Source: Caenorhabditis elegans
Lineage: Eukaryota > Nematoda > Chromadorea > Rhabditida > Rhabditidae
DNA length: 64,000 nt
Assembly (NCBI RefSeq): GCF_000002985.6
Contig: NC_003282.8
Location: 8,742,001 to 8,806,000, forward strand
Direction of reading: 5' to 3'
Shown: positions 25,885 to 48,244 of the stretch, in pieces
Layout of the letters: each line of letters begins with the position of its first letter
How positions within the stretch are numbered: the stretch's first letter is position 1
Notes under the pieces: model-generated
Told to the model about the DNA's origin: nothing
What the model saw: the letters and a program-made list of their open reading frames with translations, nothing else
Database searches by the model: none
Position numbers and translations under genes: made by a program

Positions 25885-28116
25885 TTATTGCAATTCTTCT
25901 GTGTTTTGAACAATATCGAGATCGCTCCATCCATCGGATAATTCCGTATGATTTGATGACATCTCATCTACAGCTTCCAATTCTCCAATTATCTGATCCT
26001 TCAGTTTCAGCTTAATATCAAACGATTTTTGAATTTCCTGGATATTTGCTTCATAAACTCTCGAGATTTCAGATTTAACTTGTTGAATCTCTTTAAATTG
26101 CTCTGAAATCTTCTTCTCAAGAACTCTTTTCTGATAATATAGCTCAGTGATTTCTCGAGTTCTTTCTTTCATAATCATTTCAGTATTCATTTGTTCTTCT
26201 TTAACATTTTCTTCAAGTTTTTCAATCTTTCGTACATAATCACAGAAATGATCAACCACCTGCAACCATTGCGGGTCATTTCGCATAGTTTTGAGTCCTC
26301 CGGGTTGTTCAAGAATTGCGACAAGACTTTCTGTCTGTTCAAGTTTCAGTTTTTCTAATGTTTGCTCAAGTGGGAATTCTCTGACCTCCTGGTTTGCCTC
26401 TTCGGAAGGATCAGAAATTTTTTCAGAATGGAACGTCAAAATTTCTTGTTCCAAATGGGGATATGTTCTACTAGTCCCTTGACTAGAAGTCTCACTAGAG
26501 ATTTTAAGTGTCAGTTCTCGAACATTACGCTCCAATTTCGGAGAATTTCCAGATTCAGTGCTCACATGACTCTTTAATTTGACAATCTCATCATTCTTAT
26601 CAAAGATTTGATTTTCCAGTGCAGAGACCTTCACTTGACAATCTTTTGTCTTCCATGACAATTCATCTGCCAACATCTTGATCATGTTCTCATTCGAATC
26701 AATCGTTTTTTTCATATCTTTTATCATGTCTTCATCAGTTTTGATTGTAACATTTTGCTTTGAAATTTCACGTTTCACAGAATTCAAAGCAATTTTCAAA
26801 GAATTGTTGAAATTTTCGAGCATCAAACTTTCAACACCTTCGGATTTATCATTCTTGGCAACATTCCGATCATTATTTAGTTCAGTTGATATAGAATTGG
26901 TATCATCAACTGAGAATACTGTTAAATTCTGGTGTTGAAGTTCCAAAAATTTCTCCATGACTTTTTCAATACTATCCTTCTGATAAACATTGAAGGATTC
27001 TTGAAGCATTTTAATCTCTTCATTCTTTTTCTTGAGTTCGGAAAACAGAATATTCTTTCTTTTTTGGAATTCCACTGTCACTAAGAGATAATCATCTTTG
27101 TTTTCCAAAGATGTAACCAGCTGCGATGGATTCAAACTTTCCAAGTTTTTCGTAAGATAGTCAACTTCGTCTTCAAGTTTTTGAATGATCTGTTTGTTGT
27201 CTTCCATCTTTTTTGTTATAAGTATAGGATCCTTGAAATAAAGAGAAAACGTGACTATGATCTTGTCAATAGTTTCCAGCAAGTGGAAAATGTCATAATA
27301 ATCTCCATCATTTAATACTTTTAATTTGTCCAAAAGTTGATCCATCAACTTCTCTTGTTTCGGTGTTTCATCACCAATTAATATTCCACCGTAACCGTTA
27401 ACCGGATATGGCGACAAATCATAAAATTGTTTTTGAAGATCCTCATATTTAGTTTTGAGAATTGAGAAATCTTCATTTCTCATTATCAACAACTTCTTCA
27501 ATCTTCTAGCTTCTGTCTCTGCTTTTATTTGGAAAATTTCGAATTGCATTTCAGCTAGTATTATCTCATCTTCTTGTTCATCGATTAATTTCTCAACTTC
27601 TTCTTTTAATTTTTTGATATTTTGATCTTTTTCTGCCATAGCATTTTGAAAATCTTCTAGTGTTGCAAACTGATATTCAGTGGATGTACTCGTGGATTCT
27701 TGAGTCGAAATTTCAGTGTTCTTGTTTATTCGTTTTACTTCGGAGCTTCTGACTATTTTCTCTGGAGTCCAAAACTTGTCTACTTCCAAAAAATGTGTTT
27801 TTTTGCTTCTGAAAAACATATATTAAGTAACATCTTTAAGATATTCAGGTGCACTTACATTTTTGAAATATTTGGTGACAAACTTTGAATTATCAATCTG
27901 AATTCTTCTGCGGTTCCAGTGAAGCAAGCATAATTCTGAAAATAAAAATTACAGCTTTTGAAACCAATGAAACGAAACAACTATTGTATTTAAAAAATGC
28001 TCACTTCAACTCCATTCTCTTCCACCGCTGCTTCTTTTTTCACACTTTTCCAGTTTATCAATTAAAAATTCAAGTTTCTGTTGTTCAGGTGAAGGCTGAG
28101 ATGCTGTGAACGACAT
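25885..28116 (-). CDS. Coiled-coil array member 1 (longest), 5' frame uncertain
   Basis: The main exon 25885-27808 encodes about 640 residues dominated by charged heptads (EKDQNIKKLKEEVEKLIDEQ, LKLEQTESLVAILEQ, EEQMNTEMIMKERTREITEL), predicted to form a long coiled coil. It ends in an acidic/serine tail with SDGWSDLDIVQ, the array's tryptophan motif. A preceding exon (about 27860-27937) encodes NYACFTGTAEEFRLIIQSLS in matching phase. The first exon begins with the ATG at 28116 (MSFTASQPSPEQQKLEFLID) but does not connect in frame to the next exon: a run of six A (28035-28040) puts it one base out. This is either a frameshift or an undetected splice. There is no recognisable catalytic domain; a scaffold or adaptor role is inference only. 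Confidence 0.8.
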
Positions 28117-29953
28117 AGTTCTGAAAATAGTTAATTTAAATGTAGCAGAAAAATCTTTTCTAGAAAGTAAAAAAAATCAGTAAAAACAAGTACTAAGAGA
28201 AATTGAATAAACCAATCACAATAATGACTTCTTAACAAGCTGAAAAATAATGCAATAGCAAAGAAAAACGAGTAGTTTCGGTAACTCCATAGTACATTAT
28301 TTCGTTATTGGGATCATCATATCATTTATTGATGAGGATATTATGAGTTAATTCTAATAACCCGAGAGTAAAGGCAAAAAATAGCATGGAGTGAAAAAAC
28401 GGATCAAGCAAAGAAATCGTGTTAACTTTTATAACATCTAGTTGACACTGTCAGACCAAAAACTTAATAAAATTTTCACTTGTACATAACAGCTAGCTGA
28501 AACTGTAATTTAATTTTATATTCCCTCGGTCAATTCTAGCTAAATTAGCGATTCTGAGCTAAGCCTTCATTTCAAAATTAACAAAAAAAATGCAATGAAA
28601 TTTTCACTTGTACATAACAGCTAGCTGAAACTGTAATTTAATTTTATATTCTCTCGGTCAATTCTAGCTAAATTAGCGATTCTGAGCTAAGACTTCATTT
28701 CAAAAATAACAAAAAAAATGAATTGAAATTTTCACTTGTACATAACAGCTAGCTGAAACTGCAATTTAATTTTATATTCCTTCAGTCAATTTCAGCTAAA
28801 TTAGCAATTTTGAGCTAAGTGTTGTTGTTTCTTAAAACAATGCAAATTTTGATGGTTTTTCGTGTTCAGTGAACAAACAAACAAACAAAAAAATTCTGGT
28901 AAATAACCACAAGCTGAAACTGTGAGATAATTTTTTAGTGACCATTGAGTGACTGCTCATAGACAGTGGCTTGGAATTAAGACTAGAATGATTATCTCTC
29001 ATGATAACATATTATACAGAGAAGTTGGGAAGAATGTAGGTCATTGTAAAGCGACAGACAGGTCGCATTGATCAAAGAGAATATAAGTCGAACTCTTTCG
29101 TTTGGTAACTTGAGGGCCAATGTTATTTGCTATTAGGGAAAATTAACATTTAAGGAGCAAAGGATTGCAAACAAAATGCGATAAGATATATGATTATAGT
29201 ATTTTATCTTTTGTAAGTGTTGCCATAATTTCAGTAACGAAAAAAATAACAAGGCAATTTTAGATGTTAGGAAAATCGAATTTGTCTGACTAGCCAACGA
29301 ATGTTCTCAATTGAAGTTATTGTTCTTTTTTAAGATGTTTTCATACAAATTAGTCAGTTTTCGAAGCTTCAGCCACACTTATCCGAATTGAGCAATTTCA
29401 AAACTATTTTTTGTAAAATAAAATACATCTCCGAAAATTTACATCGAGTTCCCAACAATACTGTATGGATAGAAAATACCTACCAATACTGCACATGAAA
29501 CGCTCTGAAAATAATCGGAAAGGAAATGAGAACCTTTTAAATATAAAATGAGCACAATAAGTAATACTAACTTTATTGAGAAAGAACATAATTGTTATGA
29601 GAATAGTTTTTAAATGAGGTGAGAAACAGAATATCCCTGAGAATAAGTGAAGATACTTGAAAATTTGTGAAATAGTAATAAGTAAAATGTTTTCACATTA
29701 GTATAAACAATGACAGAGTCACGCAAAAGTACGGGAAACATATGAAGTTTATAATACAGTGCAGTACAGAAAAGGTACAAAGTTTACAAGAATACAATTG
29801 TTTTTTAAAAATAATTTTTTGTTGAAGGCTTAAGGTAATACGATTAAAGAGCTACTTTCTTCCAATACGAAGTTGAATTTAAAATTTAAAAGGAAAAAAG
29901 GAAAAAAATTAAAAAGCATATGAAAAATCGGGGCGCATTTTTAGTGCAAAAAA
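28117..29953. other. Intergenic region between coiled-coil members 1 and 2
   Basis: About 1.8 kb. Contains the 128 bp tandem repeat array (28471-28820) listed separately. The rest is AT-rich; a minus-strand frame at 29404-29589 has no supporting features. Confidence 0.5.
28471..28820. repeat. 128 bp tandem repeat, about 2.8 copies
   Basis: Units start at 28471, 28599 and 28727 with AATTTTCACTTGTACATAAC, giving a period of exactly 128 bp. Each unit contains CAGCTAGCTGAAACTG and CTAGCTAAATTAGCGATTCT. Copies 1 and 2 are nearly identical and copy 3 is slightly diverged. A further fragment (AAGCTGAAACTGTGA) appears near 28911. Located between two array genes, well away from either coding region. 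Confidence 0.9.
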
Positions 29954-31188
29954 TTAGATGGCATTTATTTTATCCCATCCATCTGAATCTTCACTGTGTG
30001 TGGATTTATTGTCGTCATCTTGATCGATCATTGTATCATCAGCTTCTCCTTCTTGATTGATAAGAAGACCTTGCAGTTTTTCCGAAAGTTCCGAAATCTT
30101 CAAATCCTTCTCTCTCAATGCATCATGCATCTTCTGAATTTCAGCGGATCGTTCGCTATTTTGAATAAGTTCCATCAGACACTCAATTTTGCTATCTTTT
30201 TCCATGATTTCTCTTTTATGATTTGCAATCTGTTCTTCTTTTGATTCACATTCTCTCTTTGAATTGGCTGAAATAAAAGAAAATGCTTACAGATGTGTGT
30301 AAAACCCCTAGAAAACTTTCACAAGCTTACCTGTCAATACTTCAAATTGCCCCAATAAGTTGTGCTTCCACTCTTCAGTTCGAAGTTTAAGATCTTCAAC
30401 TGATGTATTAAGCGTGGCTTTTTCCTGCTGAGTGTTTGCAAGTTGCATCTCTAACGCCATGACGGTCGAGTTATGTTGATCCAAAATATGACTGATGTCT
30501 TGTCCCACATGTTTTTGGCGTTCTTCTGAAAATTATAGATGGTAATTTTTAATTAATACTTTAATATATAATAGAACAGCTCGTTTTTTCAATCAACTTC
30601 ATCTGTTTTCTAACCAATGTTGGCCAACTTTCAGTAAAACAATAGCTTACCTTCAAGATCGGATTCCAATTTAGCAATTCTATCTTCCGCTCTTTTGGCA
30701 CGTCTACACATCTTTCCTGTATTCATATCCGCTGAGCACAGTTCTTTTCTCAACGTACGAATCTTTGCCTTCTTTCTCTCAACATCACCATCGATCTGTT
30801 TACGAAGATTCGAAATTGTTTTGTTTTTTCCAAATATTTCTTCTGAATGAATATTTTCCATTTCTTCCTTCTGTTGAATCAACATGCGGCTCTCTTCCTT
30901 ACACCTCTCAATTTCTTCTGATTGCTTTTTGAGTAACTCCTCCTGATTTTTGATAGTTGCCCGAAGCTCACTACCACATTCTCCAGGTTCCAAAAGTTGC
31001 TGCTCAAGTTGAATAATTCGTGCTTCACTCTCTCGAAAATCTTTTTGAAGAATCTCCGTATGTAGAGAGCATTGCTCAATAAGCTTATCTCTCATCACCA
31101 ATTGTTCCAAAGTTTCCCATTGTTTCTTTTCCAATTGATCGATGTCGATTTTCGCTTGTGCCAATTCAGCTTTCAGGTTGTCCATCAT
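29954..31188 (-). CDS. Coiled-coil array member 2
   Basis: Three phase-consistent exons: about 30651-31188, 30331-30526 and 29954-30267, about 345 residues. The start (MMDNLKAELAQAKIDIDQLE) resembles the N-terminal segment of the other members in a shortened form. The middle is charged coiled coil (EELLKKQSEEIERCKEESRM). The last exon begins NSKRECESKEEQIANHKREI, has the block EKLQGLLINQEGE shared with member 3 (EQLQGLLINRDKE), and ends HSEDSDGWDKINAI, the clearest copy of the array's tryptophan tail. It is intact in every respect. Function unknown; the tail would suit binding to a small recognition domain (see findings). Confidence 0.85.
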
Positions 31189-31562
31189 ACTTTCCAGTCC
31201 AAGTTACTAAAATATCAATTTAGACTCCATGTATTGAGGTAATAAAAAAGGTATTTGAAAAGGTGTAAAACCTTCCAAAAATCACAAGAAGTATTTGAAA
31301 AAAATGTAAAAATTTTATAACGACGAGGTTGAAAAAAACACTGAAAAATCAAGTAAAGCCCTGAGAGGAAATAGGTCGAAATGGAATTTTAGAATTATTG
31401 AGGAAAAGATTCAAGAATATGATATACAACTTACACGAAGAATTTACAATTTTGAAGAACAAAGGAAAATGAATAAAAATGCAAAATAGTTAATTTGAAT
31501 ATTAAAATAAATAGAATTTGACAGAAAAAATTCAGAAAATTGAAATTACGAATTAAAAAAGC
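31189..31562. other. Short intergenic gap upstream of array member 2
   Basis: About 370 bp, very AT-rich. Presumed promoter of array member 2; no other feature seen. Confidence 0.4.
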
Positions 31563-31643
31563 TTAAGCATCGCTCATATGATCCCATCCATCTGATTCTT
31601 CACTTTTCAATGATCTACTGCACGAGCCCAAGTTAAACAAAGC
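31563..31643 (-). pseudogene. Orphan terminal exon of the coiled-coil family
   Basis: After an AG acceptor at 31644-31646 (minus strand) the frame reads ALFNLGSCSRSLKSEESDGW followed by DHMSDA and a stop, i.e. the family's last-exon tail. No coding exon lies immediately upstream in a matching phase. Member 3's exons end in phase 1, which would give an immediate stop here. It is therefore either a stranded remnant of a lost array member or a rarely used alternative end. Confidence 0.65.
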
Positions 31644-31900
31644 CTGAAAATTCGGTTTTCCCACTTTGTCCAGGTCTTCAAAATAGAATTTCAAAACAAC
31701 AAATCAACGAAAATTCGAGAAAAAAAATTAAAAACTCATTATGTATTAATTGAGAAAAAAAAGGAAAAACAAAAACGAAACAAGATGAAAATTAGATACC
31801 AGAGCTTGCTACTTACAAAATAAACAAAAATATTTACATACATGTTGCATCACTAATAAAATGAACTTAACGTATCAGTTAGAACATGGAAAAATGGAAA

Positions 31901-33274
31901 TCAAATGTCATTCATCAGATCCCAACTATTAGATGCTTGACTCTTTGAAGATTATCCGTCAGAATCCCCATCGTATTCGAATTGCTGCAAATCCTCCACT
32001 TTTGTTTCTTTGTCCCGATTAATCAGAAGTCCTTGAAGTTGCTCGGTAAGTTTCGAAATTTGCTCATCTTTCTCTTTCAGAGCTTTTTGCATTTTCTGAA
32101 TTTCTTCATTTTTCAGACAATTCTTCATGCTTGCGATAGGATACGAGGAAGAAGCTAAAACAATTTCTTCAGAGTTAATCAGATATTATTAAAACAAAAA
32201 AGCTCACCTTCCAACTCTTCTGAAGAAATAACTCTTCTCTTTTTAGTTCCACTAGAACTATGGGAGTTGGTTTCCATTGCATTATCTTTACTGCTCGCTT
32301 TTCCTCTATTTTCTGAGTGGTAGATTAATTCGATGTCAGGATCCCTCTGTTTCATGAATTGAGATGATAAACTTTGTGATTTTTCTGAAAATATAAAAAC
32401 ATACTTTTCTGTTCTTGCATTTTTCCGGTAAACATGTTCATAAAAATTTCTTACCATTTCGAGACTGTGCTTCTCTCAAGCTATTTTCTCTTCTCTCGAG
32501 CTCTTTTCTCAATCTTAAAATTTCTTGGTTCTCATGCTTTCAATATACTTTTCAAGCTTCAAAATTCTCTCATCTTTTTCATTCATCAGTATCTTATTCT
32601 CTGTTGTAAGCTTCTGGATCTTCCACGTTTCAGATTGTTTCTGAGCTTCAAGACTTTCCTTCAAAATGTCAATTTCACTATCTCTAGCAGGCGATGAACG
32701 AAGTTTCAAAATTTCTTTCTGAAGCATTGAACATAGTTCATTTTGATTTGGAAGTTGCTCCAGATAATTCAGCCGTTCATCTTTTTCTGCCAATTTTTTC
32801 TCGAGATCTTCGATTCGCTGAGTAAGCTTCAGATGATGCGCTTCCTTAAGTTTGAGCTGATCCTTTGCATTTCTGTAGTTTTCTTCGAGTTTTTTAGTCT
32901 TCAATTTATTATTTTCAAAAATCATCTCAATTTGATCATTTGCCTGCCAGAGTTCAGTTTTCAAGCGCTCATGTGCATTTGCAGACTTTTGAAAATCCTG
33001 AAATATAGTATTTTAATGAGTAAAGAGCTTATTTTTAAACCTTTAGTATCTTGAACGGATTATCACTGTCAAGAAAACCACTTCCAGGAAAAGCACCAGA
33101 GATATATTTTATCAAAAGACGTCGTTCTTGTTTTTCTTTTTGTTTTGCCACCTCACAGCGCAAGCATTTAGAGTTCTTCCCGTTCACTTTTTTGATATTT
33201 CCTGAAGAGGGAACGGTGCCTTTACGATGAGCTGTAGAGCTTGAAGCTTCAGAGTTACGATCGTCCATGCTCAT
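31901..33274 (-). pseudogene. Coiled-coil array member 3, carrying a frameshift and a premature stop
   Basis: Five exons can be traced: 33041-33274 (MSMDDRNSEASSSTAHRKGT, with a CLRCEVAKQKEKQERR block), about 32475-33000 (TELWQANDQIEMIFENNKLK, the family N-terminal segment, then heptads), about 32213-32385 (ending SSGTKKRRVISSEELEG, a basic nuclear-signal-like patch), and a last exon about 31901-32154. Two lesions are visible. Near 32530-32540 the frame breaks by one base, exactly where the close paralogue (member 4) reads KYIRNNENQDVV and this gene reads KYIES then ENQEILRLRKELE in another frame. At 31952-31954 a TAA lies where member 4 has Glu, cutting off SSKSQASNSWDLMNDI. All other splice phases still fit, so decay looks recent. 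Confidence 0.75.
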
Positions 33275-33694
33275 CTTCCTGCTGACTGGTAAATTTCTTT
33301 AAAAGTGTGTCGAAGTTCTGTAATAGAAACAATATTATATCAGAATGAAAATACAAGAAAAAAAAATTCGATATTCAAACGGCAATGATAACCATCTATT
33401 GAAAAAAAGCAAACCACATGCTTTGAAATATAAAGATTTTTTTGAATAAGAAATATTGACATAGAAAATATTCCGCCCATGTTTTTATCGGTTTTATGTA
33501 GCTGAAATTTCAAAACCAACTGTGGAATTGTGCACGGGGGAACTTTAAAAAGGTCATCAGTGGGAAAACAATATGAGAAAAAATGTACATTCCTGAGTAA
33601 GTTGAATATTTGAAAGGTAGAAATATGGAAAATGAAGAAACAAAAATAATACATCAAAGCAACAAAATTGGATCATTAAAAGAGTGAAACTAAC
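33275..33694. other. Short intergenic gap between members 3 and 4
   Basis: About 420 bp, AT-rich. It must hold the promoter of member 3 and the 3' end of member 4. No other feature recognised. Confidence 0.4.
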
Positions 33695-36106
33695 TCAAAA
33701 AATATCATCAATTTGGTCCCAACTAGAAGTTTCACTTTTTACCGACTCTCCATCCGATTCGTCGTTATAATCATATTCATATTCTTCTATTGGATCCTCT
33801 TGATCCACGCGTTTATTATTCTGATTGGTCTTTTGTTTGAGATCAGAAACTGTTTGATCTTTCTCTTTCAGTTGGGCCAGCGCCCCGTGGATTTTTTTAG
33901 CTTCCATAAAGTTACCCGAAACATCCTCTGAAGGTCCTTCTGTATTAATTAACGTGGTAACATCTTTCTTCGTAGTTTCGATTATTTTTGCTAATTCCAA
34001 AAACTTTGCATCGTCCAAATCTTCATAGTTGTGGAATAAATCTTTAAAAAGGCAACGATATTGAATTGAAGACTCAAATCTTTACCTTCAGGATCGTCAA
34101 CCATTCGACGTTTTTTCGGTCTACCAGATGGGCCTGGGGCTTCTGAAAAAAAAAGATTGTTAAAAATTGGATATCAAAAAGTCATTTCTGTAATTTGAAT
34201 TAAAAAATTGTCTAATTTTTTAAGAAAATTTTATGAATTTTAATTAGACTTGCAATTCATTCTTAAAGGAAGATTTGATTGAACCAATTATGATTTTAAA
34301 TATAAATATAATCTTAATTTTGGTTTTTTTTTTCAAAAATGGGACATCACTTGCGGTCGAAGTTCTCACACGATATTTTGGCAATCTTCCAGTATAACAA
34401 GAACATGCACTCACCTTTGTTCGTAAAAATATTTTTCGATATTTGACGGAATATATTTGCATAATCTTTGATTTCAAACTTTGCAATTTTAACATTTTTC
34501 TCATGAATTTCTTTTGATTGCTCCCGGATGAGATTTTTAATTTCCGAGTTCCTTTCCTCGATTAATCTTTCAATTTGTTCAGCGTTAATTTCTTGTCGTT
34601 TACTCAATTCCGCTTCAAGCGTTTTGATCATTTTTGCTTGAGCCTCGAGTTCCAATCTGTGTTGTGCCATCGAGATTTTTATTGTCGAGTCATCAGTTGA
34701 GGGTTCGTCTGAAATGAATGAATTACTTTGCAAAAAAAAACAAAAAATTTTACTAGTTTTCCAGAATTTAACAAAATATTACAGAGCTTATTCTTATTTT
34801 CTTTTTTTAACAGTTGAAAAAGTTAGATAAATGTTACTTTTAGAATTACAATTAAAATGATCAAAATATTTCAAAATGTCAGTATTTCATATGATCGTAA
34901 CACTAGTTACCTTTTGTAGCCTGACTTCTAAGTCTTTCCAATTCCCTAGTAAGGGCAACGACATCCTGATTTTCGTTGTTTCTAATATACTTTTCAAGCT
35001 CCAAAATCTTTTGATCTTTCTCCGCTAATTCTAGCGAATGTTTCATAGTAAGCTGACAGGTCGTTTCATATTCCCGTTCCTCAAAATCGTTCAGTTTTTG
35101 TTCTTTTGTCTCCAATATGCTTTCGAGGTCCTCAACGCGTTTCATGCATCTCTGGATGATTTCTTCCTGGATTTTCTCTTGGGCTTTTGCTTCTAAGTTT
35201 ATTTTATTAAGAGCATCGAGTTCCAGCTTATTGTGTTCAACAATCATATTAATCTGATCGTTCGCATGTTTCAGTTCGGCTTTTAATTTTTCTTCTTGCT
35301 CGATGCTTTTTGTCAATTCCTGAAACGAAAAAATAAGTAAAACCTTTTTTCAGTTTACTTTAAAGTCCAATCAGGAAATTAGTCACATAAAAATTTATTA
35401 ACTGCAGAAATGTTTTCGGTTTCCCTATTTGCATTGCTGATAGTTTCATTTTTTTTAGCGACCAAACATAGGGAAATGAAAAATATTGTTTTTTTTTCAA
35501 ATTCGTGCTTTGAGCTATTTTTATTGCCTGGTATAAGGTCTTAAAATTTCAAGAAAATAACACTGCACTTTGAAAAAAATTCAAGCCGGAACGGTCAAAA
35601 GTCGGCTCATTTTTGTACATCAAACGGCTATTAACCGGTGACTGGCCAAAGAGGGGCCGAAGATTGCTCGAACTACATCTTTTGTGGCATTTTCAGAAGT
35701 CGTTTTTTAACAAAATCTTTAATAATAATGTTTCAATTCGATTAAAAAAACATACATCTCTTAATCGCCATTTTTGAAGATTTCGAAGAAAACTAGGAAC
35801 ATTGTCATCCAGATTGGAATAAAAAGGGCGTTGTATTGGATTTGATAGTGCTGGCTTCTCGGAAAACCGTTGAAGTACGACAAACATCTCATCAATTATT
35901 GTTCCATTTGCTATTATGTCATTCACAATTTTTTCGAGGCCTTCCTTTGTGATAGTATTCAAAATATTCAACACATTCTTCGGGTGTTGATCATCTTCTC
36001 CAACTTCATTTGCTTCATCTTCCTCGGTTTTTTGGGAAATTTCAAGTAATCGCTGGGCAATGGATTCTAAGTTAGCTCTACGCCGTGTTGTAAAACGATC
36101 TTCCAT
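33695..36106 (-). CDS. Coiled-coil array member 4
   Basis: Five phase-consistent exons: 35752-36106, about 34910-35319, about 34420-34712, about 34087-34142 and 33695-34042. The first exon (MEDRFTTRRRANLESIAQRL) is mostly globular-looking and acidic. The second opens ELTKSIEQEEKLKAELKHAN then DQINMIVEHNKLELDALN, the family N-terminal segment, and continues as coiled coil ending KYIRNNENQDVVALTRELER. A tiny separate exon encodes EAPGPSGRPKKRRMVDDPEG, a good nuclear-localisation-type cluster. The last exon ends SVKSETSSWDQIDDIF, the tryptophan tail. The gene is intact and is the best reference for the broken member 3 next to it. The 430 bp first intron contains no recognisable element. Confidence 0.83.
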
Positions 36107-36720
36107 GATTGAAACCTTATTGAATCAGGTAACAGAAGAAATTCTCTGAAATTTCAAAAAATTCCATTTGAAACGACTAGAAAATCAATCATAGACTCCG
36201 CCCTTATAGTAAGTTTTTTTTTCGCTCAAAAGTTTTAGTAGAACAAAATGAGACCAAACTCAAACAAGTATAAAAAAGTATTAAGAAACAAGTTTAGAAA
36301 TAAAAAAGGTGATTCCAACCTTCAAGAAACATGATTTGAAAAGATATATAATAAATTAATTAATAATATTTATTTTGTTCTTGAGCAAGAAAATAGGTTT
36401 AAAGTATAATAATTGGTTTCCGTAAAAATGAAATCCTGAGAATGAATGTGAGCAGTTGAAATAAAAATAATGAGAAAGAAGGAATCAAGAGGCATACGAA
36501 TGAGAAAATGCATTTAAAAATATTAATGAATCACAGAAAAACTGTCGTCCAAAATGAAATATCGAAATCCTTATTTTTGAAATAAAAAGTGAAATTGAGT
36601 TACCGCGAAAGACAAACAAGAGTTTTTTGGAAAAAATAAAAAAAAAGTTATTAACAAATTACGGACCCAATCTTTTTCAATAAATATATAGCAAGACCAT
36701 GTAGAATTTTTTAAGGGATT
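36107..36720. other. Intergenic gap between members 4 and 5
   Basis: About 610 bp. AT-rich, no coding frame or structured repeat noticed. Presumed promoter of member 4. Confidence 0.4.
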
Positions 36721-38872
36721 TTAAAAGTCATCGTCATCTGATTCAACATCATTTTTTTCTTGTGTTCCTGTGATAACGTCGCCTAAACTTATCATACTCT
36801 TCATCAACATCTCAATTCTTTTCTCATTCAGTGCAACGGTAGATTGAAGTTCCAATACTTGTTTCTTGTGGGAGGCTTCTTGATTTCCATTGCATGATAC
36901 AAGATTTTCCATTCTTTCTCAGAAAAAATTCAAATTAGATTAAATTGTAAAACGAAGCTGTAACTATAAATTTTTGGTTGTAACAGAATCTAGATTAAAA
37001 CATGAATTTTTAAAATTGAACTTTATTTTGTCCCTTACAAAATAAAACACTATTTCTACTATTTTTCTGATTTCTTAATTTTATGTCAGTACTTTTAATA
37101 AAAGATTTTTGTTCGTCAAAAATCGGAATATTAATTAGAAAAAGATTCGGTCAACTAGCAAAACACCTTTCTGTTCATGCGAACGTGTTTTTTTTCAAAA
37201 TGAACTTACAACATATCAATATCAATTTAAGAAAATGACATCTTTAAATCTACAATGTGCAAACATAAACAAAACTCGAAACATTTCGGATAGAATTGCA
37301 AGCATTAGCACATACCTACCTACTATGGAAGCTTACAATGAAATAAATACTGACCTTACATAATAGAAACTCACTTACCTTCTAGACTCTTAACCTTCTT
37401 GTTTAAAACCTTCACTTCATCGTTATTTTCAACGCTAACATTTCTAGATGTACAACAGGAGTCGCTATTAGTCAGATTTTCCTGCAGGTTATACATGGGT
37501 CCAGCGTTCAATGCGGCGTCAACAATTTTTTGGTAGTTTTCATCGAATATCTTTGCCATCTTTTCAACTTCAGTTGAAGATAAAACTGATTTCCTTCCAA
37601 TTTTTTCTTTAAGATCTTCAATTTCCCGGTCTTTCTCAACATTTTGTCTATCTTTCAATTCCTGAATTTTCTTGATCTGCTCAGATAATTCTTTCCGTTT
37701 TATTTCTTCTTCCTTGAGAATTTCCGCTTTTTGCTCTGAAATGTTTTAATTTAAAACAGTTAACAAGTGTTTAAATTTTTTTGAAAACAATAAAATAATT
37801 ATCAAATGCTTAATTTCCTTACCTTCAAGTAACTTCTGAATTCTTTCGCTCTCACTTGATTTGTATTTTTCCATGTTATCATTTGCCGTTTGAAGATCTT
37901 GATAAACAGTTTCAAAGTTCATTTCTAAATTTCCAAGATTTTCAACTTTGAGTTTCAACTCCCAATTAATTTCCTCTGAGTACTCTTCCAATGTGGAATA
38001 TTTTCGTTTTATCTTATACATTTCTTCCGAATGAGCTTCTTTTAGATTGTCAATTTCAATATGATAATGTTCCATCAAACGTTTAGTTGTAGATCCGCCT
38101 TCCTTAAATGCGTCGCTGTCCATAATTTGCTGAAAATCAGCTTTCAGAGAATCAATTTCCATATCTTTTTTCTTAAGTTCGTCTCTATGCGCTTCTTGAA
38201 GAGATACAATAAATGTTAGATGTTGTATTCTTCTTGTATTCATTTTACATTCGTCTGGCTGAGCATTCTCAAGAATTCTGAAGTCAGTACGGCACTCATT
38301 TTTCAATTTGTATGAATTCATCGGGCCTTTAACCAACCTTAGTTCTTCTTCAAGTTTATGACATTTTGTTCAAGCATACCATGGGAGTCTAGTACAGATT
38401 GGAGAACAGATGACAAAATATCCATATCTCCTTTAAGTTTATCAACGGTCCTCGTTTCTTCTTGAAGCTTCACTTCGGAGTCTTTCAGAAACGTTAAGGA
38501 TGCTTTGAGCTTATTATTATCGGAATCAGCTTCAGTGTATTTTTCATTCGCTTTCTCTAACTGCTCTTGAAGTTTCTCAATTTTGTCCAAACCTTGGAGA
38601 AAGAGGAGATGAAGTTCTTTAGATTTTTGCTCAGAACTGAAATACAAATCCAATCGTTTAATTATATCTTTCTGTTCTTTTAAATCGGTTTCAAGAGTTA
38701 CACGTTTTTGATTCAATTCTTTAATTCGATCGTCTTTCGATGATAATTGTCTTGAGGTTTCATCAAACTTCACTTGCCACATTTGTCTTTCTTTTTCATG
38801 ATGTTCAACAATCATTTCAATTTGCGCTTGAGCTTGTGCTAGTTGGGTCTCTGGCCCAGAAGTTGAGTCCAT
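36721..38872 (-). CDS. Coiled-coil array member 5, lacks the tryptophan tail
   Basis: Exons about 38398-38872 or 38339-38872, 37825-38344, 37378-37740 and 36721-36915. The start MDSTSGPETQLAQAQAQIEM then IVEHHEKERQMWQVKFDETS is a clear family N-terminal segment. Long heptad regions follow (KIEKLQEQLEKANEKYTEAD, EDLKEKIGRKSVLSSTEVEK). Between exons 1 and 2 the frame changes. It can be joined by a 53 bp GTATGC...AAAG intron (donor after GGT-less SHG, entry at GPMNSYKLKNEC). Read with one extra base, the same 53 bp would instead encode continuing coiled coil (KLEEELRLVKG). The last exon ends NDVESDDDDF, acidic but without Trp, and its acceptor (TTTCTGAG) is atypical. So this member has either diverged or lost its true terminal exon. 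Confidence 0.75.
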
Positions 38873-41376
38873 TTTTTTGTATTTACTAAATGAAATTAAT
38901 AACAGTTCACGCTTTTAGAAAATAAAAGGATATGATAAGAAATGCATCAAAATATACGAGAAAAATCGTATTTTCCCTGTTAGACTTGAATGCTTAGCGT
39001 TGACAGCTTATATGTATCTCGCTTTGCTCTGATTTTATCATAAAATTGACAATCTACAAAAATGTCAAACTTTTTCTTTTTCTTTCGACTGATCAATCTT
39101 ACAGTGTTCTCTATAGTGCCTTTCTATAATATATTTTAGGGTTCTTTCTGTATTAAAATATTCTATTAAAAAATTAGTAAACTTGTCTGCAACTGAGTTT
39201 TGTTGAAGAGCTTTCAATTTTGCTTTCAAAATTTTTTTTTGATTTAAAAAAATGCTTATCACCTATAAATCTGGAACTCGACCAATAACAATACTTTTTT
39301 CTACGCGTTTTGTTTCAAGGGACGGGGCGTTTGAGGAAACGAAATCTCCAAAATTTCAACTTGCGCAGTTACTAAGTTTGTTCTGCGCAGATAATAAAAG
39401 ATGTGAATTTTTTTTGGAGAGTCTAATGATTTCTGGAGTGTTTTATTGAGATATCCGGTCATATTGAAATATTTTGAGAGAGTTTTTACAAAGCTCAAAT
39501 TACTTCCAATAGCAAATTTATATAGAAATTATGAAATAAATCGCTTATGGATTGCTCTTTGAAATATCGGAGTTTTTGGTGTTTGCGTACTTTGATGAAG
39601 TTGTTTGCCAGTTGGAGAGAATCAATATTTTACGCACATTACCTTTTTGAAAGGGGCGGGACTTAAATTAAGAGTTTGAAGTCACGAAATCTCCAAAATG
39701 TCAATTTACGCAGAGTTACTAATGAGAGTTTGTTTTGTGCATACAAAGAAAAAGATAAAAGTAGTTTTGAAGCCTTTGTTTACACAATGAAATAAATCAA
39801 TAAACAACACAAAAAGTACATTCGAAAGTTTTCGAATTTGAAATTATATTGACCAATGACTATTGAAACATGGAAAGTTTTTGAATTGAAATGTAAAATG
39901 AGGTGATAATACTTATCAGAAAAACAACAAAAACAACAATATTATAATAGATATAATTCCTCAAAATAAATTCGAAAATGTTGACTGAAAAATGAGAGTT
40001 TTGAGATATGAGATTTCTTGGCTCGAAATGAGAATGCAAAAACTTGAGATCTTCAAGAAAGTAAAAATAACAAACAACAACAAGAACAATAGTAATAATA
40101 AAAAAATGAGTTCATTTCCAGGGTTTGATGTGTTAATCTATTTGGTACAGTTATTCATGAAATAAAAGAGTATTTAAATGTGTTTCGAAACGACAACACA
40201 AACAAACAAAAAACATGCGAATCTCAAATTGATGGAGAAGTGCGAGAGAAACACGCTCGCGTACTACGCTCATATGCGCGATGGCAAGTAGCGTCTTTTC
40301 TCTGACCTCCATTTCTCTGACTGCCTGAATCTCTGACATCCATCGCATTCTCTCGTCTCTCACGCAAATGCAACATCAGCTGAGCGGGCTTCAGACCAAC
40401 ACTGTACACCCATTGTTGTGTTGCCTCGCTTTCCTGCATAGACGGGAGAAAAGACCTCCCGGCAGGAGGACACTGAGAGAAAATGACCCATTGAGAAAGT
40501 GTGAGATACGCAGAGAATGACGTATGCATAAATTGGACATCGAGAAAGCGTGAACAGCTGGGCCGAGAATAGACTGGGAAATGCTTTATAGGTCAAAAAA
40601 TTAGTAGAAAGTTGGATTACATCTGAACACCGGACAGAAGTATATAATAAATTCTTGAATTTTGTCTGATTTAAGGAGCTGAATAAAATGTGGTAGACCA
40701 TTCCTATTTCAGAATAAAAAAATAAAATACTTCAGCAAAAAAATAAAAAACAATCGAAAAAGAGGATAAAATATTTTGTTAGCTGATAATGTTTTTTATA
40801 ATCAAAAAAAAACAAGTTGGTAAGTTAAGAATTTTGCTAAACGACTGATAGAGCAAATACGTAGTATAAACTTACTACCAAATGTTCAATTCACATATTA
40901 AAAGGCTTTTCGAATTTTTCTTCCTTTCTTTAAATTCTACAGAAGTCAAAAAAACCATTGTCTGTAACAGACTCGGGTCTGTTCTTTCTTTTGAAAAATT
41001 GCGATGCTTTTATAAACATTTGGGTTGGTAAACCAGACATGGACATCCGGGCAGGTATCTGGTTTTAGAATTTTATTTTGTTCAATAATTTTCTGTGTTA
41101 TGAGATAACAGGACAACGAGTTTTTCGAAATCCAGGGAGGTTAAAACGCAAAGTAGATAATAACGAAACGAACCCGAACAATTTATTTTTTTTTCTGTTT
41201 CCTCGTAGGAAAAACATTTTAAATTTTTAAATGAATATTTCTAATCTTTCTTAAAATGCTTGACGACTAATTCAGAATCATATTATTTATTAAAACATGA
41301 AAATATGTAGATAATGCGTGGAGGTAGTATGTGAGTTCATGTCAGACAATTGGTATATATGCAGAAAATAACAGAA
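38873..41376. other. 2.5 kb intergenic region within the array
   Basis: Contains a pair of diverged direct repeats (39317-39400 and 39688-39770), listed separately. A small minus-strand frame at 39065-39262 (KKILKAKLKALQQNSVADKF) might be a stray coiled-coil exon but has no motif support. The 40220-40570 segment is less AT-rich and full of CTCTGA/GAGAGA words with CCTCCCGGCAGGAGG, suggesting a regulatory or repeat region. No RNA gene recognised. Confidence 0.45.
39317..39770 (+). repeat. Diverged direct repeat pair
   Basis: ACGAAATCTCCAAAATTTCA at about 39338 and ACGAAATCTCCAAAATGTCA at about 39693 open two blocks that continue with similar words (ACTTGCGCAGTTACTAA and ATTTACGCAGAGTTACTAA, GTTTGTTCTGCGCA and GTTTGTTTTGTGCATA). 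Spacing is about 355 bp. This suggests an old local duplication or two copies of one repeat family. Confidence 0.55.
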
Positions 41377-42854
41377 TTAAAAATCTGAGCCTTCATTGAC
41401 TTTTTCCCATCCTTGCGAATCAGTGGAATCCGATGAGCTAAGCACTTTCTCTGCTACCACATTATCATTCTTCCCTTCATCTTGAATATTTTCTTCTGGT
41501 TCAATTCCAATGTCTTTCAACGCTTGTAATGTCATGCTAAGATTATGAGCTTGTGTTTCCTTTTCTTCAATTAAGCTTGAAAGTCGAGCGATAGTTTCAT
41601 CGCTAATTTCTTCATTCACTTTTTCAGACATCGATTGATAACGCGCTGAAATTATATTTTGTTAAAGGAGTTTGCGTTTCACTTAAAATTTTATAAAAGA
41701 GAATCTCATTTAACATATACCTGCCTGTGTACATGCTTGATTGAATTTTTGCTTGAAAAATATTCGTAATTTTATAATTTGGAATTTGTTTCATGGAGTA
41801 TTTTTGCATAAACTCTTAATCCTGACAAACTCTGAGCTCCGAGACTGATTAGAGAACGTTAAAAAGCAATATAAATGAGTTTACATAAATATCAAGATAG
41901 GCATTTTTAAATCTTCCCGGATATTTAAAGTTTGCAGTATTCAAAACAAAACTAACCTTCCAATCCATTTACAATATTGTCGATTCTTTCAAATTGAACT
42001 TTCATTTCATTCCATTTTCTTGCATTTTTTCCCGTTGCAATGATCTTCGAAAATTTAGAAATTTCCATGTCAGTTAGTTCATTAGTTGCAGATTTGTTGA
42101 TTTCTCGTTTCTCCTCAAAAGTTTCAGTTTCTTTCAATGTTTCCAATTTCATTATTCGGTTTTCAAGTTCTTCAATGCATTGTTCCTTATCTTTCAAAAT
42201 CCTTTTATGGACTGCTTTGGTGTAACTGAGTTCATTTTTCAACTGGGCATTTAGGGATGCAACAGCTTTTGAGTTATTTTTTACTTTCTCAATAAGTGTT
42301 TGCTCCGACTCGCCGAAAATAAGTTTTGGATTGAGTTGTGTTACTTGTGTTATTTGTGTATTCCTTGGTTGCCACTCGTCTTTTTGATCAAGCAAATCGG
42401 ATATAATTATTCTTAAATGTTCATTCTCCGAAAATTTTGCTTCGTCGAGCGATTTCTTCATTTTTTCCATCTTGCGATCCGAAGCTTCCTTTTCAGACAC
42501 TGCATCCCCAAGTGCAAATATCTCTTTTTTCTTTTTTTCTACCAAATCTTTGTATTTTTTCAGTTCTTCTTCAAGTTCTTTTGTATCTTTTTGAAGAATT
42601 TTACAGTAATCCTCGGATTCAAAACATTGCTCCAATTCATAGATTCTTTGATCTTTCTTCACATTATTTTCTTGCAAAAGTTCAATTTTTCTTGTAATTT
42701 TTTCAATAACCAAATCCTTTTCATTCAGTTGAGCAGAAGCTTCACTGAGTTTGACTTGCCAAACAGTTTCTTGTTTTTCATTGTATTCAATGATGAGATT
42801 CATTTGGCTTCGAAGCTCCGTCAACTCTTCGTTCATTGTACTGCTAGGATCCAT
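41377..42854 (-). CDS. Coiled-coil array member 6
   Basis: Two exons in matching phase, 41958-42854 and 41377-41649, about 390 residues. The start MDPSSTMNEELTELRSQMNL then IIEYNEKQETVWQVKLSEAS aligns with member 5 (QIEMIVEHHEKERQMWQVKF). The coiled coil covers most of the protein, with a Thr/Gln interruption (TQITQVTQLNPKLIFGE) near residue 165. The last exon ends SSDSTDSQGWEKVNEGSDF, the tryptophan tail. Intact. A nearby frame upstream of the ATG would extend the open reading frame into AAAATTT sequence and was not used because MDPSST follows a TTTTTTCAG acceptor. Confidence 0.85.
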
Positions 42855-43763
42855 TTTACTGAAAAAATAAAGTGGTATCCATGGAAAAGTCAGAATATAA
42901 AACAAGACGTTTTAAAATGAGAAATTCTATAACAAACTTTTGTCTCGATGAAAGAGTAGACGCATTGTATAAAAGGGTGATGAAATAATTCCCTGTTTTA
43001 TATTTGATTTTCTAAACGCATGCTTCGTTTGTGTACGTATTGCGAAATCTTTTTTGAAAAGCGAAAACTGGGAAAAATTAATAAAAAACTATCTTACCAT
43101 TCATTGGTTTTTCGACGATCAATTTCCAACTTTTTCCATCTTTCAGATTCACAATAAGTATACAAATGAAAGTCCCTATTTCAAGCTCAATAAAAGAATC
43201 CCGAATTTATTTGAAAACTGTTCAGGAAAACGTAAACATATTCCCTCAATCAATAAAGCGATGCATCGTCCTTATAAAAAGTGGACACACACTGCATAGC
43301 ATGCGGGAATGCCTCTTGCTGCGGACCCCTTTACTCGCGAAGGTCTCACCATGAGAATAGTAACAGATCGATAATCTGAGTGCAAACATAAGAGAACGTA
43401 AGATTATGATATCTTTGTGTTGACATATGGGTGAAGAAGAATTTGAGTTTGCCTTTTTTTTAAATCGCAACTTGAAGAATAATCGAATACTAGCATACAA
43501 TAAATATACATTTATTCAAAGGATATTTATTTTATAAAGCACACGCAAAGAATTTATTTCTTCAAATATAACCAGTGAATGGTGACAATTAAAACAAATT
43601 TAACATGTCTTCCGTAAAATTAACCAATAAGGATCATGCAAAATATAAGTAGAATACTATAGAAAATTGGAACACTATTTGGCAAGGAACTGCAAAAATA
43701 TTGAAAGATCGTGACATATTTGGCAATAAATTGATAATTCAAATTTTAAAATATGAAAATATT
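42855..43763. other. Intergenic gap between members 6 and 7
   Basis: About 910 bp with no supported gene. Short plus-strand frames at 43054-43354 overlap each other and have no motif or phase support. Probable promoter of member 6. Confidence 0.4.
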
Positions 43764-44650
43764 CTATGAAGCATCATTATCACTAATTCGATCCCATTGT
43801 GCAGATACTCCACTTTTTGCTGAACTCGTCGATTCTCCATCAATATCATTTTTCGACTTCTCTAAACTTCCCATTTGAATAATTTTTTGAATAGTTTCCA
43901 ATTGATTTGTGAGTCTTTCTATCTGCTTATTTTTTGCTTCTATTGAATCTGAAATGTTTTATACAAGAAACATTATTTTAAAATTAAAAAAAAACATTTC
44001 AACTACATACATATGTATTCGGTTTTCTTAATTCCAAAAAAATAACTAAAAAGCGTGTAATTAAAAATTAACAAACCTTCTATGGGTTTTACAATATCTG
44101 AGTTTCCCACTGAAACGCCTTCTTCAATTTTCAGACTTTCGACCTTCATATTTAGGGTTTCATTTACTTTACTTAACTCCGATTGCTCAGATAATTTTGA
44201 CTCCAAAACCTCTTTTCTGAGTGCATTTACTTCGGCTTCAAGTTTCTGATTTTCTTCTTGTGTTTCATAAATTTCAAGTTTATCTTTGGCATTCTGAAGC
44301 TTTGATAGATCCAAATCTTTCCGAAGTGTTCTGACAACTTCCATGAGACTTTCCATATTTTTCTCTAACATTTGACAATAATCATGAGTGCTCAGGCATT
44401 GCTCCAGTTGCTGCACTTTTTTCTCATTTTCCATGTTTCGAAGTTCCATTTCATCATATTTTCGAGTCCAATCTCGAATTAGTTGATTTTTATCAGTAAT
44501 TTGGTTTAATGATTCAGAGTATTTGATTTTCAGCTTCTCATACTTCTTTTTATTCTGATCGATTAGCATATAAATTTGATCATTTGAAATTGTGGAATCA
44601 GTTTTCTGAAGGCTTTCAGATGATGTTGAATGAGCATCGCTTGCTTCCAT
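43764..44650 (-). CDS. Coiled-coil array member 7
   Basis: Two exons in matching phase, about 44075-44650 and 43764-43949, about 250 residues, the shortest complete member with a tail. It starts MEASDAHSTSSESLQKTDST, followed by the family segment SNDQIYMLIDQNKKKYEKLK and heptads (EQCLSTHDYCQMLEKNMESL, similar to EQCFESEDYCKILQKDTKEL of member 6). The last exon DSIEAKNKQIERLTNQLETI ends SGVSAQWDRISDNDAS, the tryptophan tail. The donor GTTTGT is weak but used consistently within the family (GGT at the Glu-Gly junction). Members 6 and 7 look like the closest pair after 3 and 4. Confidence 0.83.
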
Positions 44651-45473
44651 ATCTTATTCTGAAAATAAAAATTGTTGGAACAATAAAACTATAAGGTTGA
44701 GAGATAACAATTACATTAAAAATTAATAACTTCATACAACATCTCCGGTCAGATAAATTGACAAACCGATTTGTCTTTCGTTTCTTATCTCTCTCTTACT
44801 CTTTTTCATATCTTTCTGCTCTTCACAGTCTCTTAATCTTGTGTACTATTTCTCCAACTCTTTCGCAACAGCAACTGGGCTCTTTTCTCAACAAAAGATT
44901 GGTGTGATCGGGAGCCAACGGTTATTGAGATTTGAGTTACCAATAAACAGGGTAAAGGTGTGCAAGGTAAAAGGCAAACGTGTGAAAAATTTATTAATAA
45001 AATAAATTATTTATTATTTATTATTTAAATCAATAAAACCATAAAATACCATATTGGATATTTTCAGAAACACGCGTCAAAAATATTCTAACCATAGAAA
45101 GTAACAACTAGTTACTTGTCAAATTACTAAAATTTACTGTTTCACTGTTTCAGCTTTAGGAAACCAGCTGTGAGAAAGTTAGAAATGTTCTGCAAAAAGT
45201 TGCAACAAAAATGATTACCGGAAAATTACATGAAAAAGATGACAAAGATTAATAAATTTCCAAAAAGAGAGGAGAAACAAGTAGTCAAATAGACCTTACG
45301 TACGGAAGATATGTATGAGATTTTGAAATTTTACAGAGGTAATTCCTCTGTGCTCAGCTGTTCTGAGAAAATTATTTAATTTTTGATATGATAAACAAAC
45401 ATCGAGATAAAGTTTTAATCTTCATTACCAGAAGATATCATTCTAGTTTCATTAATAACGTTTCACATTTTAT
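44651..45473. other. Intergenic gap between members 7 and 8
   Basis: About 820 bp. Pyrimidine-rich words (CTCTCTTACTC) just upstream of member 7 and a TTATTTATTATTTATT run near 45005-45025. No gene supported. Confidence 0.4.
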
Positions 45474-45887
45474 TTATTCGAAGCCTGGTTTTTTTTGCAT
45501 CTTTCGGTTAGCCAATTTTTGAATCCAATATGATTTCTTTGCGTTGGCTTCTTCATTTTTGTCAATTTGTTCTACACGTGCCATCATTGTACGATTTAGC
45601 AATCTAGTTTCCTTTATCGGGCTCTTTAATTGTTTTTCCAAACGTAAATCCGTCTCTCGATATTCCTTTATTTCAGCTTTCTTCTCATCTGGTGATAAAT
45701 CGTTCATTCTAAAAAATTTTAAATTTTTAAATTTTAAAACTATTTTTTAAAAACAATGATAAATTTACTTGTTTTTGTGATTTTGATTTTCCAAATCCAT
45801 TTGGTTGATAACATGCTCGCTGTCTTGTTGTAACTGCATCAACTTTTGTTTCCATTGTGCCACTAAATCCTTATTTCGAGAAATCAT
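45474..45887 (-). CDS. Coiled-coil array member 8 or short remnant
   Basis: Two exons, about 45770-45887 and 45474-45710, joined in phase, about 117 residues: MISRNKDLVAQWKQKLMQLQ ... NKMNDLSPDEKKAEIKEYRE ... KSYWIQKLANRKMQKKPGFE. The first exon (VAQWKQKLMQLQQDSEHVI) recalls the xxWQVKLxExxxQL part of members 5 and 6, so it probably belongs to the family. It lacks a tryptophan tail and most of the coiled coil. A TTTTAG acceptor directly precedes the ATG, so an upstream exon carrying the true start could exist. It is either a small truncated gene or a remnant. Confidence 0.55.
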
Positions 45888-46448: not shown

Positions 46449-48244
46449 TCAAATCTGTGTCTGTGCGTTTATCACAGAAATTGTAGACGTGGAGTTTGCG
46501 TTTTTCTTTTCCGACATGAACATCGGATGAGTTAAATATAAAATCCATGGCGTGACACAGGTCTCAATATCATTTCCAATTGGTCGAGTAAATGTGAAAT
46601 AGTCTCCATATTTTGGAAAACTGAGATAGACAATCTGAAAGTTTTAAAACTAATCTTGAACGTCAAACTCAGAAAAAAAGGTACCGCCCAAGCCGTATTG
46701 TTGGAAAATGGAATCATTGCAGCGATTATTGTTATAGTAAGAGACCGTTCAGCTTTTGACGAGCTTTTCTTCGTTTTCATGGATCTGAAAGATACTTCAT
46801 TAATGCTAGAATTGACTAAATGTTGAAAACTTACATATTGCTATTCAATGATGTTGCCCTTAATTTGAAAAACATTAGAGCTGTACATAAAAGTGTTAGA
46901 AAACACATTATAATCGACATCATTAAGTGAATGTAAGAGTTTCTCCACTAGAAATTTTTGCTTAAATTTTTTCCTGGAAATTAATTAACAGTACCCCAGG
47001 CCACCCTCCTGAGTAATATATAGCTATCGCTCCAAACTTCAGAGGATAATTTAATATTCTACAGTAACCCACTGCAGGAATCAGAAATGCTGTACATCCT
47101 AACGGTATGATTATAAGCAAAGGAATCAGTATAAACATAAGTTTGGGGCAAATCTGAAATGTTGAACAGTGGAATGTAATTCTACTGAATTCATCGGAAT
47201 ATTTAAACTAACAATATCATAATCTCTAGGACGCAATAGAATAACAACTCTTATGAGTGATATGTAGAATGGAAGCATCAGAATACAGTAGTTGAAAATA
47301 TAGGTCGATATGAAAATTAGTTTGAAAAAATGATTTGGACGAACTGAGGCACACCATGAAGTGAAGATTCCAGTAGCAGGAAGAGTGATTCGGAAGTAAT
47401 CAGAAAAGAAAAATGAGAGGCTCTGAATATAAAAAACTAATTAGGTTGACTTAAATACTGATTTTCATTGGTTTTTTGGTCGCCTAGGAATCCTTCGAAG
47501 GTATTAATTTTATATATTAATTTTATATTTTTTTATTCATTCCGTGATTATTTTCATTCCGTGATTATTTTCATTCCGTGATTATTTTCATTCCGTGATT
47601 ATTTTCATTCCGTGATTATTTTCATTCCGTGATTATTTTCATTCCGTGATTATTTTCACTCGGGAATCGCTCGCCCACTATGGGGGAGTCTACGCAAGGA
47701 CAACGCAAGGACAAGGACAACATTCTAATGGAATGGAAACAATTGCCCGACTGCACCAATTCTAGTTCAAGCGAACAATGATAACTTTTGTATTCTGTAT
47801 TCCTTCACGTCTCCCAGCGAGCGTAATAAATTATTATTATTATTATATAGTTAATTTCTGTTGGACACTTAAGAAATGTAATAAACAATTTTTACGGTTA
47901 AAAACTATTAAATTAAGAAAAAAAAACAATTTTTTTTGAAAACTAAATTTCGAAAATGTGTATTTTACTCTCTTTTTCCATGGATTCTTCTTCAACTTTT
48001 TTTTCAAATGCATTCTGCTCATTTTCGAAAGAGAACTTACACAGAAAAAGTTTATTGAAATAAAAGTAAAAATGTGTCGATCCATGGAAACGTTCTTCGA
48101 TTTCCAATATGTTAGAACAATTTTAAACATAACAAAAATAGTTGGTGGCATATAAGACAACGGAATTGCAGCTATAACAGTTGAAAATGTAAAATAATAA
48201 TGGAAATTCTTGTATTCTTGAAGTCCATGAATTGAACCTTGCAT
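46449..48244 (-). CDS. Nematode serpentine chemoreceptor (SRU-like seven-transmembrane GPCR)
   Basis: Exons 48041-48244, 47213-47422, about 46995-47157, about 46835-46947, about 46685-46780 and 46449-about 46635, in compatible phases, roughly 330 residues. It begins MQGSIHGLQEYKNFHYYFTF and has successive hydrophobic segments. Landmarks are ITLPATGIFTSWCASVRPNH, YIFNYCILMLPFYISLIRVV, AFLIPAVGYCRILNYPLKFG, and the seventh-helix block RPIGNDIETCVTPWILYLTH followed by a short polar tail. These blocks fit the Srg superfamily of worm chemoreceptors, most like SRU as I remember it. Such receptors sit in sensory cilia and signal through G proteins. The first intron (47423-48040) is enlarged by a minisatellite and a possible retroelement fragment. 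No lesion was found, although the exon ends in the middle are approximate. Confidence 0.8.
47538..47656. repeat. 17 bp minisatellite, seven perfect copies
   Basis: CATTCCGTGATTATTTT is repeated seven times head to tail without a mismatch, inside intron 1 of the chemoreceptor gene. There are no unique spacers, so it is not a CRISPR-like array. The perfect identity points to recent expansion. Confidence 0.95.
47657..47850 (+). mobile_element. Possible retroelement 3' fragment in a receptor intron
   Basis: Directly after the minisatellite the base composition jumps (CGGGAATCGCTCGCCCACTA, GGGGGAGTCTACGCAAGGAC, CTCCCAGCGAGCGTAATAAA) and then ends in a short ATT-repeat tail (47827-47846). A GC-richer body with a simple-repeat tail inside an AT-rich intron has the form of a non-LTR retrotransposon 3' end. 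No coding frame remains and I cannot name the family. Confidence 0.4.

Follow-up and report, generated by a model that had tools for sequence, protein, structure and literature searches.

In Caenorhabditis elegans, SEPA-1 and EPG-2 are described as proteins that self-oligomerise and link cargo to LGG-1 or to other Atg proteins (PMC12005284). The LGG-1/LGG-2 motif is given as [W/F/Y]-x-x-[I/L/V]; in LC3-interacting regions (LIRs), the aromatic residue is preferentially preceded by acidic residues or Thr, positions -1 to -3 are acidic or phosphorylatable, and Met at +3 occurs in very few cases, while LGG-1 is described as accepting W and LGG-2 as preferring Phe (PMC7615515). Here, we analysed an array of genes within a 64,000-nucleotide stretch of C. 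elegans chromosome IV, IV:8742001-8806000 (the window; positions given without a chromosome refer to it), in which all modelled members lie on the minus strand. Judged by sequence comparison, the array holds a real, locus-restricted coiled-coil family with a LIR-like tail, on which no paper was found in the openly licensed literature.

Paralogy of the clustered coiled-coil genes

Eight minus-strand genes were modelled, from G1 (28116-25885) through G8 (45887-45474). A preliminary description of this DNA had proposed a family of seven to eight consecutive minus-strand genes encoding charged proteins with heptads. The gene models and translations bore out the consecutive arrangement and the charged heptad character, and a simple periodicity test placed the heptad power of G2-G7 and G1 above the shuffle mean. 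The proposed membership was an overcount, since shuffles and genome searches support six genes, G2-G7 (44650-29954), which on these comparisons are true paralogs of one family, and leave out G1 and G8.

To score each pair, Smith-Waterman scores were compared with those of 100 shuffles permuting seven-residue blocks, which retain local heptads. Within G2-G7, eight of the 15 pairs (G2-G3, G2-G4, G2-G6, G3-G4, G3-G6, G3-G7, G5-G6 and G6-G7) gave z values of 4.6-10.3, with the score reached by 0/100 shuffles, and these eight pairs connect all six genes. Weaker values were obtained for G4-G6 (z 2.9) and G4-G7 (z 2.1), and the remaining five pairs gave z 0.9-2.0. The sole link of G1 in this test was with G2 (z 3.5, 0/100 shuffles), and G1 gave no family match in its whole-genome search or in hidden Markov model (HMM) tests. 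G8 was at background in 7/7 pairs of the shuffle test, and likewise in the HMM tests. The paralogs are well diverged, with identities to G2 of 21-25%; the last exons of G2 and G3 share 76% DNA identity across 88 bp.

Whole-genome single-sequence searches were performed with the seven queries G1-G7 (G8 left out), scoring the best candidates. Seven cross-matches with E values of 3.7e-4 to 2.5e-8 were detected, all at C4:8.772-8.787 Mb, within the array, and no cross-match outside the array rose above background. The best outside match, from G2 to C1:7927379-7927678 (E 0.007), overlaps a myosin-tail hit at C1:7927328-7927687 and therefore sets the coiled-coil background; further outside matches were weaker (G7 to C1:9416152, E 0.14; G1 to C4:7191342, E 0.25). 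Some links within the array are near this background and carry no weight alone (G5-G6, E 0.005; G3-G7 and G7-G3, approximately 0.2). As far as these searches reach, the family is restricted to one 15-kb locus; because they are single-sequence searches, distant relatives could exist elsewhere. The family is probably young.

The head segment of the form QIxMIxExNK, which had been noted by eye in members 3-7, was confirmed by leave-one-out HMM tests, in which the decoys were 59 open reading frames (ORFs; at least 100 aa, forward frames, off-frame included) plus G1 and G8. A search for myosin tails had supplied 25 loci from which these ORFs were taken; six of the loci were below the cut-off of that family. 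Each of G3, G4, G5, G6 and G7, when left out, ranked first of 62 with 32.5-56.2 bits (E <=2.5e-10), against 12.4 bits (E 3.5e-4) for the best decoy. Since decoys reach this level, E values are inflated for coiled coils, and it is the gap in bits that decides. The head of G2 was at background in the same test (rank 11, 1.0 bit).

Among the Pfam matches listed for G2-G7, no family was above cut-off (best E 0.011), and none was above cut-off for G1 and G8. Families with weak hits below cut-off, such as MitMem_reg and Vac_Fusion, were dismissed, as coiled coils are expected to give noise of this kind. No PDB match was found for the two queries tried, G6 and the G2 tail, and no Rfam match at gathering score was found within the window. 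Together with the lack of outside cross-matches above background, the Pfam and PDB results support, for G2-G7, the view that this coiled-coil family belongs to no named one. Three genes in the literature are possible members that could not be mapped to a model: C33D9.6, given with 'Coiled coil domains' (PMC4418752), C33D9.3, given as 'Nematode-specific' (PMC4850687), and F20C5.6, listed as a machine-predicted pro-longevity gene (PMC7728194).

The tryptophan tail and its possible partners

The preliminary description had assigned most members of the array, and an orphan exon, a final exon ending in a Ser/acidic stretch with one Trp. A W tail is indeed present in G1, G2, G4, G6 and G7, in an orphan exon (31643-31563), and in frame directly after the TAA of G3; of the five last exons tested by HMM, those of G2 and G3 alone were recognised as homologous. 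All seven W tails (five in gene models, one post-stop and one orphan) contain the motif S/T-x-x-W-[DES]-x-[ILVM], with the cores SDGWSDL (G1), SDGWDKI (G2), SDGWDHM (orphan exon), SNSWDLM (beyond the G3 stop), TSSWDQI (G4), SQGWEKV (G6) and SAQWDRI (G7). The residue at W+3 was I, L, V or M in 7/7 tails, compared with 17/156 among other tail residues; W-3 was S or T in 7/7 and W+1 was D or E in 6/7. When residues were shuffled around the fixed W, the full count at +3 was reached in 0/20000 and that at -3 in 1/20000 shuffles of all seven tails, and in 1/20000 and 19/20000, respectively, for the five in-model tails (5/5 at each position). The ELM pattern for LIRs was matched by five of the seven tails, the other two failing solely by Met at +3. 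In sequence, the tails have the form of an Atg8-binding LIR.

These features suggest a possible role in selective autophagy, which we hold tentatively, at somewhat less than an even chance: the proteins would be self-associating coiled coils that present C-terminal LIRs to LGG-1 and act as autophagy receptors, scaffolds or self-delivering substrates like SEPA-1 and EPG-2. In layout, G2-G7 start with a short head, followed by long predicted coiled coils and an acidic/serine linker that may be disordered; most members then end in a C-terminal W-x-x-hydrophobic motif. The coiled coil would form multimers and bind a partner or cargo, in whichever tissue the proteins may be made, and the tails of a multimer could dock side by side in the LIR-docking site of LGG-1, a W-tolerant Atg8 of the GABARAP type. 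Judging from the S/T at -3 and the acidic flank, phosphorylation might tune this docking. An adaptor or scaffold role of the family, in more general terms, is plausible on these sequences.

Several observations weigh against the proposed LGG-1 docking. No acidic residue stands at W-1, which is G, S or Q (acidic in 0/7). G5 lacks the W tail in its gene model and ends in DDDDF, the W tail of G3 lies behind an in-frame stop, and a W tail is also carried by G1, whose only link to the family is the weak one to G2. The shuffle values given above overstate significance and describe constraint rather than probability, because paralogs share descent. Chance matches are common, as shuffled versions of the eight proteins gave means of 0.5-10 matches to the general LIR pattern. 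Similarly, when the genome was scanned for exact matches to DGWDx[IM], six places were found, compared with five in the reversed control, so this string alone is not enriched in the genome; W was seventh from the ORF end in only two of the six (G2 and the orphan exon), and 28-272 residues before the end in the other four. Strict heptad periodicity was found only in G5 and G1 (0/200 shuffles), the heptad power of the other members being weak (reached by 10-36/200 shuffles). Finally, in the last-exon profile, tested in five members (G5 left out), G2 (40.8 bits) and G3 (31.8 bits) ranked first, while G4 (rank 38), G6 (third) and G7 (fifth) were at background. Similarity falling to background in profile comparison had been named beforehand as the finding that would speak against the family; the head thus held in five members and the last exon in two.

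One place in the scan, C5:9968940-9968956, reads DGDGWDLM after an acidic stretch in a 392-aa open frame, far before the end of that frame, and may be a LIR-like site inside a gene unrelated to the array.

A serious contender, which we nevertheless consider doubtful, is that the family forms coiled-coil scaffolds and uses the W tail to bind another partner, as a structural, cytoskeletal or embryonic adaptor. This explanation accounts for the coiled-coil layout and the conserved tail, and C33D9.6, a coiled-coil gene that is perhaps a member, is reported as synthetic lethal with sdn-1 in an RNA interference (RNAi) screen (PMC4418752). However, the assignment of C33D9.6 to a model in the array is not established, and W-x-x-hydrophobic with an acidic/Ser flank is the form of a LIR, with no other partner indicated.

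The in-frame stop before the G3 tail, the orphan exon, the absence of W from G5 and the 76% DNA identity between G2 and G3 are consistent with turnover in the array, which the preliminary description had called actively evolving. An array of coiled-coil duplicates decaying under weak constraint, in which the tail is a relic of shared ancestry, could explain the first three of these signs as well as the low identity to G2. This explanation appears improbable: the array retains six long gene models in spite of this divergence, and mean pairwise identity is 39% across the tail core from -3 to +4 (seven tails), compared with 27% in the eight preceding residues (six tails, G1 left out).

A GW/WG-type Argonaute hook, which would place the proteins in a small-RNA pathway, is far less credible. 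GW is found in 4/7 tails in a Ser/acidic context, but each tail has a single W, the G before it is not kept (S, S and Q in 3/7) while the hydrophobic +3 residue is kept in 7/7, and an Argonaute hook is not known to need a hydrophobic residue at W+3. The proximity of elli-1, which lies approximately 14 kb from the G1 end and is presented in the title of its paper as modulating RNAi activity and the accumulation of P granules (PMC5325599), would fit this explanation, yet elli-1 was unmatched by the G1-G7 genome searches. A kinesin-light-chain W-acidic cargo motif can hardly be entertained, since its consensus has an acidic residue immediately before W, which 0/7 tails have, even though D or E follows W in 6/7.

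Returning to LGG-1 docking, we consider it conceivable, though unlikely, that the array represents recently born, locally amplified autophagy receptors or scaffolds, in which the cargo-binding coiled-coil part was diversified by tandem duplication while the C-terminal LGG-1 hook was kept. Such a set would be a lineage-specific group of adaptors, and loss of the hook (G5) or a stop (G3) would yield hookless partners. If the tails bind LGG-1, the array would be an unstudied selective-autophagy adaptor cluster in a model animal, with evolution of the cargo side visible from one adjacent paralog to the next, and the lack of attention from single-gene work could be a result of redundancy. If they do not, the array is still a clean coiled-coil family, confined to a single 15-kb locus within the reach of these searches, and its W tail offers a handle for finding the partner.

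Gene models and surroundings of the array

The models were obtained with a small gene finder that combined assumed splice weights with codon scores derived from the window itself; exon borders are therefore provisional, above all the junction at 38379 and the last exon of G5, the G3 introns at 33040 and 32548, and the G4 intron at 34085. As one-pass models merged adjacent genes, the intervals were modelled separately; G5 was then split in two, and its four-exon model combines both runs.

The genes G1-G8, the continuation of G3 past its stop and the orphan exon are all on the minus strand. G8 (45474-45887) encodes 117 aa and showed no heptad power above shuffles in the simple test (200 shuffles); its membership was not shown by shuffles or HMM tests. 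G7 (43764-44650) is a family member of 252 aa in two exons, with the head DQIYMLIDQNKK and the tail SAQWDRISDNDAS. G6 (41377-42854), a member of 388 aa in two exons, has the head SQMNLIIEYNEK and the tail SQGWEKVNEGSDF, and TTTTTTCAG stands immediately 5' of its ATG. The member G5 (36721-38872; 516 aa in the four-exon model) has the head AQIEMIVEHHEK, and its junction at 38379 and last exon are weakly supported. G4 (33695-36106) is a member of 485 aa in five exons, with the head DQINMIVEHNK, a KKRR run and the tail TSSWDQIDDIF; its first exon (36106-35756), of 117 aa, had no Pfam match and no other match in the genome search, and could represent either a gene of its own or a fused domain. The member G3 (31952-33274) encodes 371 aa up to its in-frame TAA, with the head DQIEMIFENNK, a KKRR run and, at 33040 and 32548, splice sites that are weak. 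G2 (29954-31188), a member of 348 aa in three exons, has a head unrecognised by HMM and the tail SDGWDKINAI. The neighbour G1 (25885-28116), for which family homology was not shown, encodes a 688-aa protein with a coiled coil and the tail SDGWSDLDIVQNTEELQ. TTTTCAG-type acceptors were found directly before the ATG of G1, G6 and G7, as is expected with trans-splicing.

After the TAA, the frame of G3 continues (31901-31951) as SSKSQASNSWDLMNDI and reaches a second stop, and the G2 query aligns past the first stop with 48% identity. The G3 tail is either cut off by this stop or reached via a weak alternative splice. A 57-base splice around the stop would use poor sites (donor -2.5, acceptor -3.4), and among the phase-0 donors listed in the last stretch of G3, even the best two are weak (-2.4 at 32215, -2.5 at 31999). 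The orphan tail exon (31563-31643), ALFNLGSCSRSLKSEESDGWDHMSDA, has the strong acceptor TTTTCAG (score 5.7) and an open reading in phase 0 only, so that a join from G3 would draw on these weak donors.

Introns had been described as lying in phase 1 at a Glu-Gly codon. The phase was upheld as an excess, with 12/15 introns of G2-G7 in phase 1 compared with 16/58 in five neighbour models made with the same gene finder (PARG, CDC50, RhoGEF, kinesin and SRP54, the last two named by eye; Fisher p=3e-4, paralog introns not being independent). The Glu-Gly part fell away: GAA-G|GT forms the donor junction in 7/12 phase-1 introns, and what reads as 'Glu-Gly' is therefore mostly the splice-donor consensus seen across a phase-1 junction rather than a feature of the proteins. 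G3 and G4 have in common a phase-0 intron that immediately precedes the head, as well as an SG..KKRR exon followed by a phase-1 intron.

Based on Pfam, the array is flanked on the left by PARG and CDC50 and on the right by a RhoGEF/PH protein, which we infer to be exc-5; exc-5 is C33D9.1, described as a guanine nucleotide exchange factor (PMC3121877), and C33D9.6 has its cosmid prefix. The two guide sequences printed for elli-1 (F20C5.3) in the ELLI-1 paper (PMC5325599) match exactly at 11524-11542 and 11407-11425, and elli-1 therefore lies inside the window. As a candidate family member, elli-1 was rejected, its guides lying at approximately 11.4-11.5 kb and ELLI-1 being described as mostly disordered with no discernable domains (PMC5325599). 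Exons of an Sru-class chemoreceptor follow the array at 46.9-48.3 kb, and between them lie 7.2 perfect copies of a 17-bp unit, TTCATTCCGTGATTATT (47536-47658). Directly upstream of G1 is a 128-bp tandem repeat of 2.8 copies (28466-28819), with 11 more matches (pieces of 76-87% identity) clustered at IV 16.543-16.551 Mb. In addition, 55055-56515 on the minus strand encodes a predicted secreted protein that resembles a C-type lectin by eye, with no Pfam match at E<=0.001.

Comparison with known systems

The proteins of the array share charged heptads with myosin-tail-type coiled coils, to which G2 gave the weak background match on C1 (E 0.007); this match falls short of the strongest links inside the array, and none of the six members scanned matched PF01576 at E<=0.1. 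With SEPA-1 and EPG-2, described as self-oligomerising worm proteins that act in selective autophagy via LGG-1 or other Atg proteins (PMC12005284), they would share self-association, through the predicted coiled coil, and a LIR-like tail; this likeness is one of described behaviour, put forward with no claim of sequence kinship. As in the case of canonical LIR/AIM proteins such as p62, the tails have a W-x-x-[ILV] core preceded by acidic or Ser/Thr residues (PMC7615515), whereas they differ from these in their position near the C-terminus, a single W in each, a mostly acidic +1 residue, G, S or Q at -1, and Met at +3 in 2/7.

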